This document shows, one piece after another, positions 1,058 through 55,481 of a stretch of 64,000 nt of DNA. Source of the DNA: Phreatobacter sp. (GTDB lineage Bacteria > Pseudomonadota > Alphaproteobacteria > Rhizobiales > Phreatobacteraceae). The stretch lies in assembly GCF_027532945.1 (NCBI RefSeq), contig NZ_JAPZTZ010000003.1:1-64000 (forward strand). Direction: 5' to 3'. Position numbers and translations under genes: made by a program. The notes under the pieces were generated by a model. That model saw only the letters and a program-made list of their open reading frames with translations. It searched no databases and had not been told where the DNA came from. Position 1 is the first letter of the stretch. Every line of letters begins with the position of its first letter.

Positions 1058-3055
1058 GTGCGGCTGGCCCGCGTCCTGCACTTCTTGCATGGCGAGGAAC
1101 TGGGAAACTGGAACCGCAGCAAAGACGGTCTTCAGACGGCTATTGCGGCATCCGAAGACGACGCTAGCCTTAAGGCGCACCTTGGAAACCTCAAGATCCG
1201 GCAGCTCGACCTTGATGTCCCATTGATGTCGGTCGATGACCCCAAGAAGTCTGGGGATGTCGAGGTTTCCGCTAAAGCTTGTTCGGCGCGGACTTTGCTG
1301 CGCCTCGTGAACATGTACGAGGCCGGGGGACGAAACGCATCCGCGCTCTGTCCGCGGTTCCCCGCCCGCGGCAACCGGCGGATGCGCGTTCACCCCATTG
1401 CGCATGCAGCCGCCCGCAAGATCGCGGCTCTGTACCTCGACCCGAAGAAGCCCTCGAAGAAGGCGGTCTACGTCCTGCTGAAGGACGAGATCAGGGATAT
1501 CAACGAGGTGCGGCTCCAGAACGGCGAGGAGGCGCTGCCGGTCCCATCGAGAACCTACCTTTCGCAGCTGATCGACGAGTTCGATGCCTACGAGGTCACC
1601 TTCTACCGCGAGGGCAAGGAGGCTGCCGACAAGAAGTTTGCGTCCGTCGGTGCCGGCAAAATGGTCGAACGGATTGGCGAGCGGGTGGAGGGCGACGAGT
1701 GGAAAATCCATGCGTTTGCCCTGCTGGTCAGGCACGACCTGTGGCGTCATCTCAACGCAGAGCAGCGCGAGAAGGCGCTCGTCGCCAGGTACTCCCTGAC
1801 AGTCTTCATCGATGTGGCCAGCCGGGTCATTCTCGGCATCCACCTGTCCCCGTCGCCAACAACTGAGGCGGCGCTCCGCGCCTTCTCGCTGATCGGCCAG
1901 GACAAGACGTCTCTCGCCAACTCGTTCGGATGCGCTGCCGAATGGGACTTTGCATGCGGGGTCGAGAAGGTTGTCGTCGATAACGGCAGTCAGTTCCTGT
2001 CTTACGAGTTCCAGGAGGCCGTCACTGGCCTCGGGACGGAAATCCAGTACGCGATTGCGGGTATCCCTCGACTGCGTGGAACGATCGAACGGTGGTTTCG
2101 CCGGATCCATGTTGACCTGATCGGCCGTCTCCCTGGCAAGACCTTTTCGAAGGCCAGTGAGCGCGATGAGTACAAGTCAAAGGAGCTCGCCAGCCTCTCT
2201 GTAGAGGAGATACTGCGTGTCATCTTTCGCTGGATCGCTGACGAGTACCATCACACTCCTCACGAGGGCCTTGGGGGGCGAACCCCCGCCCAGGAATTTC
2301 AGCGGCTCGCCGACAAGTACGGGGTTCCTGCCCCGCCGTCTTACGACCAGCGCCGGCTCGCGCTCGGCCGCCGCCTGACGCGGACGCTCGGGGCCACCGG
2401 CGTTCGCGTGGCGAACATTGACTACAACTCCGAGGAACTCGGCGATCACTTCAGCAAGCATGATCGCTGCAAGGTCGAGGTCTGTCTCGATACAGACCGC
2501 CTTGACGAAGTGTCCGTTCTCATCGGCGGCCGATGGGTAACCGTACCTCAGCGGGTGCCGGGGCTCGCAAGCGGCCTGTCGCTGGAGCAGTGGAACGAGG
2601 TGCTTGCCGAGGTGCGGCGCCGCTACGGCGAAAACATCGAGATCCACTACGACCAGGTCCGCAAGGCTCGGGAGGACGTGGCGGCGATCATCCACCAGTC
2701 CCGCACCCGCGCCGTGCTCCTCGAGGAACGCCCGACCGCAAAGGCAATCCGGTTCCACGAGGCTCAGATGGGCAGCGGGTTCCGTGTGACCGGGGATCCG
2801 ACGCTGGTGGAAACCATGCCCGCCCTTTCCATCGGCAAGGTCTTCAAGACCGGTGCGCTGGCCCCGAAGACCCCGGTGAAGCCGCCCACGGGCCACGATG
2901 ACACGCCGTCTGATGCCAACCCGGCTCCCGCTCCGCTGACGACGACCGTCCGCATCGAGTCCGAAGGACCCGATGTTCCGGCCCCGGGATCGGACGACGT
3001 GACAGTTTCCCAGCCCAGCACCGAGGAGGATGACGGTGACCTCAACTTCATTTGA
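1058..3055 (+). pseudogene. TnsB/TniA-like DDE transposase, 5' end cut by IS630
   Basis: The open frame continues upstream into the IS, but that part is only antisense of the IS transposase, so the native sequence starts at 1058 and the true N-terminus is lost. What remains is about 665 residues. It has an HTH region (RTLLRLVNMYEAGG), a linker (PVPSRTYLSQLIDEFDAYEV), and the rve/DDE core with an acidic residue near EGDEWK, then VVVDNGSQFL (second D) and RGTIERWFRRIH (E). A Mu-type C-terminal domain and a Pro/Thr-rich acidic tail that may contact the ATPase complete it. It overlaps the next gene by 26 bp, as in tnsB-tnsC or tniA-tniB operons. It would cut and join the transposon ends. Internal starts exist (GTG 1058), but loss of the DNA-binding N-terminus probably inactivates it. 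Confidence 0.85.
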
Positions 3056-4019
3056 CGGCGAGCCGATGCCGATGCCGCCCAACATCAACGAGATCGTGGG
3101 GGGCCTCAGGGCCCTCCATGTCCAGTCACCGCTGGATGACAAGGCCAGGACCGCCTTGGATCAGGCCCTGAACAACCACGCCACCGGCTCCCGCAAGCTG
3201 GTGCTGGCGGCTCTCGGCCCGTCTGGGGCTGGCAAGACGAAGACGGTGAAGCGCCTTCTGTCGGAGGAGCGCTTCGCGGGAAAGGTGCTCTCCGTCGTTG
3301 CGACGTCTCCTGCCTCGGTCAAGACGCTTGCCCGTGATGCGCTTCATGCCCTGGGCCATACCATCGTGCGCGGTCAGATGGATGAGCAGGCGTACCTCAA
3401 TCAGTTGAAGCTGGGACTGGGCGCTTCGGGGACGATGATTTTCCACATCGACGAGGCTCAGCATCTACTGACGTCCAATGGTGAAGTTACCATCGCTCGG
3501 ACGCTCGATACCCTGAAGCTCCTCGTGCAGGATCCCTACAAGGTCGTGCTGATCCTTACCGGCACCGACAGGGTGGCCGAAGTCTTCGAGCGCGACGACC
3601 AGCTCCATGAGCGCACCATCTACGTGGAAGCCAAGCGGCTTTCGATCGATGCCAACTCGGTCCTGACAGGAAAGATGCTTCGCAACTTCTGTCAGAGGGC
3701 TGGCCTTGAGCAGGGCTGGGTGGATGCTGATCGACTGCCTCAGCGCATCACGCACGCTGGTCGAACGTTCGGCCTGGCTGTCAGCCTCATCATTGATGCC
3801 ATCGAACTCGAGCTGAGGTCTGGCGGGAAAACCCTTTCCCCGGAGAGCTTTGCCAAGGTCTACGCGCGAGACCGCGACGTGGGGGCCTACCTCAACCCCT
3901 TCGTGGCGGAGGATTTCATGGATATCGATCCTTCCCGGCGCACCGAAGCTACGGAAGAGGATGCATGTCGTCCGGCGAGGAAGAGCCGCGGCCGCAGGAA
4001 GAAGGGGGCGAGGCGATGA
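3030..4019 (+). CDS. TnsC/TniB-like AAA+ ATPase
   Basis: The 329-residue product has Walker A GPSGAGKT (about residues 63-70) and Walker B MIFHIDEAQ (about 135-143). A sensor-like LILTGTD follows, and the C-terminus is very basic (RKSRGRRKKGARR), which could bind DNA. In Tn7 and Tn5053 elements this ATPase links the target selector (TnsD/TniQ) to the DDE transposase and senses target immunity. The gene starts inside the end of tnsB-like DNA and its stop overlaps the start of tniQ, so the three are one translationally coupled operon. It appears intact. Confidence 0.88.
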   Translation: MTVTSTSFDGEPMPMPPNINEIVGGLRALHVQSPLDDKARTALDQALNNHATGSRKLVLAALGPSGAGKTKTVKRLLSEERFAGKVLSVVATSPASVKTLARDALHALGHTIVRGQMDEQAYLNQLKLGLGASGTMIFHIDEAQHLLTSNGEVTIARTLDTLKLLVQDPYKVVLILTGTDRVAEVFERDDQLHERTIYVEAKRLSIDANSVLTGKMLRNFCQRAGLEQGWVDADRLPQRITHAGRTFGLAVSLIIDAIELELRSGGKTLSPESFAKVYARDRDVGAYLNPFVAEDFMDIDPSRRTEATEEDACRPARKSRGRRKKGARR

Positions 4020-5791
4020 GCCGCCTCTTTCTCCCCCTGCGCGTCTTTGAGACAGCCTATTCCTATGTGGGGCGCCTGGCTGCTCGTTTGGGCCGGGCGA
4101 TGGGCGAGTATCTGGTCGACGTTGGTCTCCCAGCGGCAGAGTTCACTGCCGGTGAGCCAAAGGTCTTGCAGCGGATCGCCGAGATCGGCGGGTGCGATGT
4201 GGAGATGCTCGCGTGGAGTACACCGCGCCGGGCGTCCGACGGCACGGATTCCGTGTTCCTGGGCCATACGTGGCCTCGCTCGTCGCTTCTCCGCGAAACC
4301 GTCCGCTGGTGTCCCGTCTGTACCGCGGAGGATCGCAAAAATGCCTCCGGTAACGTCTGGCCTTCCTTCGCGGCGTACGGTCGGGCTTCCTGGCTCTGCT
4401 CCTCGATCCGAACCTGCGTCGAACACGGGGTCGAGCTTGCCGAGCAGCGGCTCCCCCGGGTCCGGCAGCTCGACGTCGTATTCGCCATGGCGGCGCCGCA
4501 GGCGGCAGAACCGGTTCATCGGAACCCATCCCCACTGGAGATCTACCTTGTCGAGCGTCTGACGGGTAATGGCTCGACCGCCTCGTTCCCCGACGCCATG
4601 CCGCCCTGGGCCGTCGCAAAGTTCTCCGAGCAGTTCGGAGCGACCATCGCGTTCGGCCGCGATGTGGGTTTCGACACGTTGACGGAGGCGCAACTGGCCC
4701 TCGCTGGAGGCGCTGGTTTCACGGCGGTCGAGACTGCTGAGAACCTGCGTGCCCAACTCGCTTCCTTGGTCGCGACTTTCAAGGGCCCATCGAACGCCGG
4801 CCCTCAGGCGATCTTCGGCCGCAGCTTCTGGGTTTGGCTCTCAAAGGAAGCCGACAACCCCGCATATGCGCCACTGGTTGAAATCATCCGCGATTTTATC
4901 GTCGACGCGCTGCCGCTCCCGCCGGACGCCATCGTCCTCGGTGAGAAGGTGACGCCAAAGCACATGTCGGTGGTGGCGGCGGCCAAGCACTATGGGCTGC
5001 ATCCCAAGACGCTCGGGAACGTTCTCGTCAGTGCTGGTATCCTGCCCGAGCGCGCAGAGGTCGGCGTCGCCCCTTCGATTGACGTTTCGGCACTCCACCA
5101 GTCCCTCTGTGACCTGAAGGACTCGCTCGGACCGAAAGACCTTCAGACCTATCTGAATTGCCCCAGGGTCCAGACCAAGCTTCTGATCGAAGGGGGCCAC
5201 CTGAAGCCGGTTTTCGAGACTGCCGAGGCCGAGCGCAGATACGCCCGGAGGATGGCCGATGAGTTCATGGCATCGATCTGTTCGGGCGCCCAGGCAGTCG
5301 ACATCCCCTCGCCCGGCTGGTTCCACCTGGTCGCCGCCACCAAGCGAGCGAACTGCAAACTCGTCGAGACCGTCGATCTCATCCGGTCCGGACAACTGCC
5401 TGTTCAGGCAGTGAAGGTGATGCCCGGCTTCATGGGCGCCCACGTTGAACTGGAAGCACTGAAGAAGCTCACCCGCGGGGAGCCTCTCCCTGGTTTCACC
5501 AAGCGCGAGTTTATCCAGTTGCTCTCGCTCAGCGATCGCGTGGCCAACGCACTCATCGAGAATGGGATCGTTCCCACGATCCCGGCGCGGCATCCGGTGC
5601 ACCGCGGAACCATCGACGTTGTCCCAACCGAAGCGGTCGAAGCCTTCGCCCAGACTTTTGTCACGCTGCACAACCTCGCCGCGGAACGGGGCCAACATTT
5701 CCTGAGCGTCAAAAAGGACCTCGAGCAGCGAGCTGTCGCTCCGGCCTTTGATCCCGCGACTGTCTTCGCCACGATCTATCGCCGATGCTAA
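4016..5791 (+). CDS. TniQ/TnsD-family target-selection protein
   Basis: The N-terminal TniQ domain has a zinc-finger pattern WCPVC ... W-LC ... CVEHGVEL (about residues 99-145), typical of the family. A later helix-turn-helix-like stretch (SVVAAAKHYGLHPKTLGNVLVSAGI, abbreviated here as residues about 323-347) may contact DNA. At about 591 residues it is longer than most TniQ proteins and comparable to or larger than TnsD, which favours a sequence-specific target selector. The start at 4016 gives an ATGA overlap with tnsC and follows a G-rich ribosome site; ATG 3965 is an alternative. The C-terminal 60 residues have a diverged second copy as a relic at 55296-55481. Confidence 0.83.
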   Translation: MSRLFLPLRVFETAYSYVGRLAARLGRAMGEYLVDVGLPAAEFTAGEPKVLQRIAEIGGCDVEMLAWSTPRRASDGTDSVFLGHTWPRSSLLRETVRWCPVCTAEDRKNASGNVWPSFAAYGRASWLCSSIRTCVEHGVELAEQRLPRVRQLDVVFAMAAPQAAEPVHRNPSPLEIYLVERLTGNGSTASFPDAMPPWAVAKFSEQFGATIAFGRDVGFDTLTEAQLALAGGAGFTAVETAENLRAQLASLVATFKGPSNAGPQAIFGRSFWVWLSKEADNPAYAPLVEIIRDFIVDALPLPPDAIVLGEKVTPKHMSVVAAAKHYGLHPKTLGNVLVSAGILPERAEVGVAPSIDVSALHQSLCDLKDSLGPKDLQTYLNCPRVQTKLLIEGGHLKPVFETAEAERRYARRMADEFMASICSGAQAVDIPSPGWFHLVAATKRANCKLVETVDLIRSGQLPVQAVKVMPGFMGAHVELEALKKLTRGEPLPGFTKREFIQLLSLSDRVANALIENGIVPTIPARHPVHRGTIDVVPTEAVEAFAQTFVTLHNLAAERGQHFLSVKKDLEQRAVAPAFDPATVFATIYRRC

Positions 5792-5822
5792 ACATGAAGC
5801 CGCAGCTCGTTGTGTCTCTCCC

Positions 5823-5851
5823 AAAACGCCCGCGTACCTCGCGGGCGTTTT
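5823..5851 (+). terminator. Strong hairpin terminator after tniQ
   Basis: A perfect 12-bp inverted repeat (AAAACGCCCGCG at 5823-5834, 5-base loop, CGCGGGCGTTTT at 5840-5851) lies 31 bp after the tniQ stop. The A/T flanks of the stem make it a candidate bidirectional intrinsic terminator closing the transposition operon. Confidence 0.85.
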
Positions 5852-5878
5852 GCGCTTTTGGGGCAATCGATGGCATGG

Positions 5879-6106
5879 CCTGGCGCCAGGTTATGGGTGG
5901 ATTCTGCCCCACGCTAAGTGAAGCGAGCCGACCGCCAGTGACAGGTTATGCCTGCGGTGCGCCACCATTTGCTTCGAGAATCGGCCCAAAACCCCGGTTT
6001 TTGGTGACAAGAATTGCTTGCCTCTACAGGGGTGGAGCTGTGGAGCGACGCATAACTTGGCACCAAAAGCCGGGTTAGCGTGGCGCCATCCACCCATAAC
6101 GTGACA
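5879..6106. repeat. Candidate transposon right end: four GTTATG-cored repeats in inverted pairs
   Basis: Four short repeats share GTTATG followed by a G/C-rich tract and CCAC. Two are on the plus strand (from 5890 and from 5945), and two on the minus strand (ending at 6056 and 6100). The outer pair is almost identical: GTTATGGGTGGAT followed, after 4-6 unlike bases, by CCACGCTA, at 5890-5916 and on the complement of 6076-6100. TGGCGCCA palindromes occur at 5881-5888 and 6081-6088. The outermost bases TGACA (6102-6106) read TGTCA inward, as in Tn7/Tn5053-type ends. I infer TnsB-binding sites at the transposon right end; the inverted pairing is unexplained. Confidence 0.55.
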
Positions 6107-6118
6107 TTCTCATCAATG

Positions 6119-6145
6119 GGCCTCGCCGAACGGCGGGGCCTTTGT
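6119..6145. terminator. Hairpin with T-rich tail just outside the transposon end
   Basis: GGCCTCGCC (6119-6127) pairs with GGCGGGGCC (6132-6140) with one U-G pair and a 4-base loop, followed by TTTGT. It looks like an intrinsic terminator. The gene it served is not obvious; it may belong to the chromosome beside the insertion site. Confidence 0.5.
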
Positions 6146-6476
6146 CATTTCAGAAAGCTAGTGGCGGTGACGTTGCCCCTCTGAGCTAATCCAGCTTGAA
6201 GTTCGTTCTGGCTCGTGGTGGTGGGGAAGGTCGAACGTCAGCTCTTGGGCTAGAAGCAAACGACGGCAATGGCGGCGCCAAGCTGACTCTGCATCGCATT
6301 CGCCTCTTGGGCCCATTGCCGACATCCCCAACGTCCGCTTCGAGCGGCCCGACGGGACATAGCTGGTAACCGGTCAAGGCAGCGAACGATACGGCATCCT
6401 CAGGTTTGATCCCCTCAAAGAATACCTGCAAGGGACCCGCTGATGGCGGCTGGCCGTTTTGTGCTGCTCACTAAAG
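6146..6476. other. Non-coding stretch with a dispersed-repeat fragment
   Basis: No convincing gene is seen. On the minus strand 6303-6350 carries CGAAGCGGACG and, about 14 bases on, AATGGGCCC. The same two blocks in the same order occur at about 49165-49200, so this is a degraded member of an interspersed repeat family. An 81-codon open frame across it has no recognisable protein features. Confidence 0.6.
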
Positions 6477-7259
6477 CTAGACAAACTGAACGGAGACGCT
6501 GCCAAGCGGACCGAAATCAGCGTGCAGCGTATCACCTTTCGCCGCCCAGACCGGCCGGGTGAATGATCCCGACAGCATCAGATGGCCGGGCTCGAGCACC
6601 GTCCCGAATCGCCCGACCTTGTTGGCGAGCCATGCGATCGCCATGGCGGGATGGCCAAGGACACCAGCCGCCAGGCCCGTCTCCTCGATCTCGGAATTCC
6701 GGTAGAAGATGGCACCCACCCAGCGCAGATCCACGGCGTCCGGCCGAACGGGGCGCCCACCGAGGACGATCCCTGCGGCTGCGCCGTTATCGGCCACGGT
6801 GTCCTGGATCTTGCGAGGGTTCTGAACACGCGCATCGATGATCTCGATGGAGGGCACCACCCACTCCGTCGCCCGCAGAACATCGACGAGGCCGATCCCC
6901 GGCCCTTTGAGGGGCTCCTTCAGGATGAAGGTGAGTTCCGGCTCGACCCGCGGCACGCAGTAGTTCTCGAACGGGACCTTCGCTCCATCATTCAGGAGCA
7001 TCGTATCCAGGAGGTGCCCATAGTCAGGCTCGTCGATCTGCGAGGAAGCCTGCATGGCCTTGGATGTGAGGCCGATCTTGTGGCCGATGAGGCGGGCACC
7101 GTCAGCGATCTTCCGCTCTGTCACGAGCGAGGAAATGGCGTAGGAATCCTCGATCTCGATATCAGGCATGGTCTTGGTGAGCTGGAGCGCAGGCGTGCGG
7201 ATGCGCTCGGCTTCGAGCAGGATATCTGCGGCTTTGCGGCGATCGGCATCGGACAGCAT
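6477..7259 (-). CDS. hpaH: 2-oxo-hept-4-ene-1,7-dioate hydratase (HpaH-like)
   Basis: The 260-residue product belongs to the 2-keto-4-pentenoate hydratase/FAH-fold family. It shares long stretches with HpaH of homoprotocatechuate degradation, including [17 protein letters not shown] followed by EPDYG, PRVEPEL with metal-binding acids, EIIDARV, and GSFTRPV near the C-terminus. HpaH adds water to 2-oxohept-ene-dioate before aldol cleavage in the meta-cleavage pathway, in the cytoplasm. The other hpa genes are absent here, so the actual substrate may be a related oxo-enoate. It is followed 9 bp away by the decarboxylase-like gene upstream on the same strand. Confidence 0.82.
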
Positions 7260-55295: not shown

Positions 55296-55481
55296 GGCGA
55301 CCAGGTCGCGAAGGCTCCCGGCGAGACCCGTCTCGTTCCGACGGTCTCGGCCCGTCATCCCCTGCACCGCGTGACGGTTGACGTCTTTCCAACCGAGGCC
55401 GTCGAGACCTTCGCCCGAATTCTCGTCACGATCGACAATCTGGCGGCAGGCCAAGGAGCCTTGGCCGCCAAGGAAGCGTAA
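55296..55481 (+). pseudogene. Relic of a second tniQ gene (C-terminal end only)
   Basis: The plus-strand frame from 55296 to a stop at 55479-55481 reads GDQVAKA, then LVPTVSARHPLHR, DVFPTEAVETFA and VTIDNLAAGQG. It aligns without gaps with the C-terminus of the TniQ protein at about 5545-5690 (DRVANAL, IVPTIPARHPVHR, DVVPTEAVEAFA, VTLHNLAAERG), with roughly 60% identity over about 55 residues. Upstream an in-frame stop at 55263 and unrelated sequence show the gene is truncated. The rest of 55212-55590 holds no other gene. Confidence 0.8.

Follow-up and report, generated by a model that had tools for sequence, protein, structure and literature searches.

Organisation of the repeat block

The DNA analysed here (the window) is a stretch of 64,000 nucleotides at the start of contig C26 (331 kb) in a 4.1-Mb Phreatobacter genome. 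Close to its beginning, past the genes of a transposon, lies a 228-bp block (5879-6106) in which one short repeat occurs twice in each orientation, and the locus raises the question of what such an arrangement represents. GTTATG is found at 5890-5895 and 5945-5950 and its complement CATAAC at 6051-6056 and 6095-6100, which together make four of the six copies of this hexamer on both strands of the 64-kb window. The outer pair falls within a 31-column inverted match (TTAGCGTGGgGCagAATCCACCCATAACcTG / TTAGCGTGGCGCcATCCACCCATAACgTG) with a score of 36. Dinucleotide shuffles (2000) gave scores that averaged 14.0 and peaked at 33, and about 2000 other segments of the window reached 25 at most. Since the match exceeds all of these, the four-repeat pattern is real and not a product of chance. 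A preliminary description of the block had reported both the two inverted pairs and the near identity of the outer pair, and every motif lies where it had been placed. That description also had the outer pair bounded by palindromes. The palindrome TGGCGCCA is indeed present at 5881-5888 and 6081-6088; however, the left copy lies outside its GTTATG and the right copy between two CATAACs, so that the two are not equivalent. The right position reads TGGCGCA, which is not palindromic, in an alignment of four related ends, and the palindromes are therefore regarded as incidental. A fifth, diverged site on the minus strand (5992-6017), the terminal site of element A below, had been overlooked beside the four that were correctly seen.

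The block as a whole had no second copy in our searches, which included the Phreatobacter genus, and no plasmid in the plasmid search carries it; its right module occurs elsewhere and its left module nowhere else. An Rfam search of 5700-6500 returned chance-level matches only and no family. We propose, with a probability of roughly 0.86, that the block is the junction of two ends of Tn7-like transposons of one family, where an element A landed beside an older element B at nrdJ, the gene for the B12-dependent ribonucleotide reductase. This corresponds to the first of three options put forward in the preliminary description, namely two abutting ends; the two lie 10 bp apart and face outward from each other. 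The other two options, a miniature non-autonomous derivative and an end of novel symmetric architecture, fit poorly with a right module that recurs alone in three other genomes when the left does not.

Two predicted ends of one transposon family

The right module is the putative att-proximal end of element B. It begins at 6039 with TGTGGAGCGACGCATAACTTGGCACC, extends rightward to 6149 on the plus strand and contains two predicted TnsB-type sites, P1 (terminal; 6050-6074; GCATAACTTGGCACCAAAAGCCGGG) and P2 (inner; 6094-6109; CCATAACGTGACATTC), followed on the same strand by a terminator-like hairpin at 6119-6141 (GGCCTCGCCGAACGGCGGGGCC, then TTT) that the alignment shows to be conserved inside the end. 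About 120 bp in, the end is cut off by insertion sequence (IS) debris at approximately 6163-6212, leaving only some 110-130 bp of element B here. This debris is the end of an IS (GTGACGTTGCCCC...) that is multi-copy in the genus and present in nearly all Phreatobacter genomes; the same IS end also occurs in the first bases of contig C31 (L069), downstream of nrdJ.

DNA searches located B-type ends beside nrdJ in three other Phreatobacter genomes (G009, G010 and G007), with TGTGGAGCGAC as the beginning of the homology and distances of 17, 13 and 17 bp from the nrdJ stop codon, respectively. In these nrdJ flanks the spacers to the left of TGTGG are unalignable and the sequences to its right are 88-95% identical; the terminus of B is accordingly placed where homology is lost, at the TGTGG at 6039. 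After about 110 bp the loci diverge, apart from the G010 end and a second G009 copy, on contig C29, which are alike to about 197 bp. Such differing remainders would be expected of elements that have their ends in common and vary in cargo. The C29 copy is not beside nrdJ, and its left flank has no counterpart in the Phreatobacter genus. No partner end of the B-type ends was found in 4-9 kb of flank or across the whole genus, and no transposase gene was detected beside the nrdJ-linked ends in the flanks examined. The recurrence pattern is what one would predict if end B were an end conserved throughout a family of site-specific transposons. At 2 kb to the left of the C29 copy lies a complete TnsA-TnsB-TnsC-TniQ element of a different kind (L067:3534-8347), which has a copy of about 70% identity in another genome (G003:C15).

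We had first adopted a reading in which the right module is a conserved 3' untranslated region of nrdJ, complete with terminator, into which A inserted. The module does closely follow nrdJ in the three other genomes and includes the terminator-like hairpin. This reading was dropped on finding that A's own terminus matches the first 42 bp of the module in inverted orientation and that seven other Phreatobacter nrdJ loci have unrelated DNA in its place. Other points against it are the copy away from nrdJ in G009, the identity of its first 12 bp with the terminus beside nrdJ on contig C31, the unalignable spacer to the stop codon and the lack of any matching Rfam family, and we now hold it to be quite improbable.

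The homology with the four other loci also bears on the terminus favoured in the preliminary description, TGACA at 6102-6106, under which the block would be a single, symmetric end belonging wholly to element A. TGACA does resemble TGTCA, which forms the termini of Tn5053-type elements. The homology, however, shows no common break at 6106 but takes in the hairpin and reaches about 6149, and its left border is 6039; TGACA thus sits within P2, the second site of end B. There is next to no chance that the block is one end of this kind.

Returning to the junction of two ends, the left module is, to judge from its sequence, the far end of the TnsB-TnsC-TniQ element A. It ends in CTCTACA, with ACA at 6026-6028 as the candidate att-distal terminus (plus strand; TGTAGAGGCAAG when read inward), and holds three predicted TnsB-type sites on the minus strand: D1 (terminal; 5992-6017; GCAATTCTTGTCACCAAAAACCGGGG), D2 (middle; 5935-5951; GCATAACCTGTCACTGG) and D3 (inner; 5879-5896; CCATAACCTGGCGCCAGG), where the stretch conserved with the inner site of B runs to about 5917. 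Read from 6028, this end has 29 of 42 ungapped identities to end B, making 6028 the single best counterpart of the first 42 bp of B, the next best being an unrelated terminus with 21 of 42. A 45-bp alignment of the two termini scores 36, a value reached by none of 1000 shuffles (mean 15.9, maximum 31.5), and a profile of five B-type ends matches the minus strand from 6027 with an E value of 0.016. A weight matrix built from these five ends and the A end gives them 46-53 bits and everything else at the loci 17 bits or less, which is not independent support for 6028 because the A end is in its training set. The same matrix revealed no further partner end at the examined loci (best other score ≤17 bits). 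The regions downstream of tniQ in five distant relatives lack GTTATG arrays and were of no help in placing the terminus.

Both modules thus comprise arrays of approximately 20-bp TnsB-type sites in opposite orientation, three at the far end of A and two at end B, with a consensus of about GCATAACYTGKCACCA to which TnsB would bind. Two oppositely oriented modules with conserved inner arms within 228 bp might also be expected of a single MITE carrying a left and a right end and mobilised by the neighbouring TnsB. In such an element both termini would be outermost, whereas here the termini at 6028 and 6039 lie between the arms and the ends face outward from each other, the reverse of a MITE; moreover, the whole block occurs once, with the right module alone in four places and the left module nowhere else. 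A MITE is consequently very unlikely.

The junction and the proposed nrdJ attachment site

The ends A and B are separated by 10 bp (GGGGTGGAGC), and the junction reads CTCTACA, GGGGT (6029-6033), GGAGC (6034-6038) and then TGTGGAGCGACG. In this genome nrdJ lies on contig C31, where the sequence 16 bp past its stop codon is GGGGT followed by TGTGGAGCGACG. The latter stub, which is all that remains there of the att-proximal end of A, is 12 bp long and gives way to unrelated single-copy sequence; a multi-copy IS was considered for this sequence and rejected on its single occurrence in this genome. GGGGT therefore precedes the family terminus on the nrdJ side and follows the A terminus on the other side. 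As the same pentamer stands after nrdJ on C31 and to the right of the A terminus, it looks like the 5-bp target duplication of element A, with the left copy on C31 and the right copy at 6029-6033. By base composition such a match would arise by chance in about 0.2% of cases (~0.002). The duplication is read across two contigs, C31 and C26, which are separate, so that the assembly contains no physical link between nrdJ and A; the two contigs would once have been joined through A. The adjoining GGAGC is probably the left target duplication of B, whose partner copy was not found.

The sequences show two ends, B-type ends placed 13-17 bp after nrdJ in three other genomes, and a pentamer that matches on both sides of A. 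The presence of GGGGT on both sides of A makes the simplest history one in which B inserted first, after nrdJ, and A was probably inserted later between nrdJ and B. Under this scheme TniQ would most likely recognise the conserved 3' end of nrdJ, as the position of the insertions suggests, and direct insertion to 13-21 bp past its stop codon. Element A would then have used the same attachment site and landed 5 bp upstream of B, duplicating GGGGT and thereby placing its far end back-to-back with the near end of B. The distances observed are 13-17 bp after the nrdJ stop in G000, G007, G009 and G010, and with GGAGC added, B would have stood 21 bp from the stop before the arrival of A. The TGTGG end faces nrdJ in 4 of 4 nrdJ cases, in line with orientation control. 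As a counterpoint, outside the genus the closest relatives of A share only 30-36% identity in TnsB, and none lies within about 10-20 kb of nrdJ.

Other features of nrdJ flanks were also observed. The stretch from nrdJ to a pobA-like gene measures 7.6 kb in G009 (L071:10220-17800) and 4.2 kb in G010 (L072:12832-17000), and the two are wholly different save for the B-type end, so that the 3' side of nrdJ looks like an insertion hot spot. In G005 (L080:1605 onward) an ImmA/IrrE-like gene appears to start directly after nrdJ.

Element A and its relation to known systems

Tn7-like transposons have been defined by TnsB and TnsC together with TnsA and/or TniQ (PMC11406308), and element A carries genes of this set, all on the plus strand: a TnsB-type DDE transposase (1059-3055; Pfam rve, below cut-off, and Mu-transpos_C; aligned with four relatives), a TnsC/TniB-type AAA ATPase (3030-4019; AAA_22 and TniB) and a TniQ/TnsD-type target selector (3965-5791; TniQ, E = 8.5e-19) of 608 residues with a long C-terminal part. 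An IS630-family insertion sequence on the minus strand (1-1058) forms the contig end and truncates the start of the TnsB gene, removing about 85 N-terminal residues from a translation that retains the catalytic D...D-35-E. The 1058-bp unit ends in CTAGAGC...GCTCTAG, and another copy interrupts an EamA-type gene, the two parts of which lie on contigs C6 and C23. The window contains no tnsA, the IS630 having removed the sequence 5' of TnsB; the gene was probably lost with that insertion, since the nearest relatives (30-36% identity) carry tnsA directly upstream, as seen in at least six. Element A is thus probably dead, and neither element is now likely to be self-mobile, given the missing N-terminus of TnsB in A and the short remnant that is left of B. 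Neither a resolvase ORF nor a Cas-like gene of the kind that marks CRISPR-associated transposons was recognised in 1059-6028, most of A being outside the window. A TnsB scan of the genome collection found no close relatives, and plasmid TnsB matches were all below 60% identity. Separately, a 47-residue remnant of the C-terminus of a TniQ, with 60% identity to that of A, lies at 55299-55439, flanked by a gene for a TRAP-type transporter and by a GntR-type regulator, as a trace of a third family element.

Element A and its family share with Tn7 (TnsABCDE, attachment site glmS) the TnsB/TnsC/TniQ(TnsD) set, arrays of TnsB sites, a 5-bp duplication, insertion at a short fixed distance past a conserved gene and TGTGG-type termini. 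The terminus of Tn7 is TGTGGGCGGACA, which the TGTGGAGCGAC of B-type ends resembles. They differ in using nrdJ and not glmS, in having two or three spaced sites per end, and in that no TnsE was seen and tnsA is not in the window. In Tn7 the end of the conserved gene is bound by TniQ/TnsD, TnsC acts as a bridge, and TnsB together with TnsA places the element downstream, in one orientation and at a short, fixed distance (PMC11406308, PMC10293859); the 5-bp duplication is characteristic of Tn7 and its relatives (PMC11406308). The alphaproteobacterial TnsABC-TniQ elements of G119, G345, G364 and G273 have the gene order tnsA-tnsB-tnsC-tniQ, a large TniQ and TnsB proteins 30-36% identical to that of A, but their end sequences differ and they were not found near nrdJ. 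In G119 an M78 (IrrE-type) peptidase gene follows TniQ (L036:13792). Tn5053/Tn402 elements (TniABQR) likewise combine TniA/TniB/TniQ-like proteins with a 5-bp duplication; they have a TniR resolvase with a res site and no TnsA, whereas the relatives of A carry tnsA, the termini here are TGTGG/TGTAG and no resolvase gene was seen in the part of A present.

Where a copy of Tn7 is already present, further insertion nearby is strongly inhibited (PMC11406308). That a related end at a distance of 5 bp was no bar to A suggests either that TnsB recognition has diverged or that immunity is weak. Tn7-like elements that landed beside one another at a single site, giving multiple left and right ends, are known (PMC8649781); here, by contrast, a mere 10 bp separates two ends of one family, and the existing end did not prevent insertion. 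We lean slightly towards a reading in which nrdJ is an undescribed attachment site used repeatedly by this TniQ-guided family and in which the family lacks short-range target immunity, A having inserted only 5 bp away from an end whose TnsB sites are nearly the same. The site may be new, as no paper in the open-access literature, the scope of our search, was found to combine 'Tn7-like' with 'ribonucleotide reductase' or 'Tn7-like transposons' with nrdJ. Apart from the site, this is ordinary Tn7-like biology and the elements are of a known kind.

For one Tn7-like family of Phreatobacter, the analysis gives the ends, target duplication and attachment site as predicted from sequence. nrdJ would be added to glmS, tRNA genes, parE and comM as safe sites for insertion, and the 10-bp spacing of two related ends provides a natural setting in which to ask when target immunity breaks down. 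Within Phreatobacter, cargo such as defence genes could be sought in the 3' flank of nrdJ.
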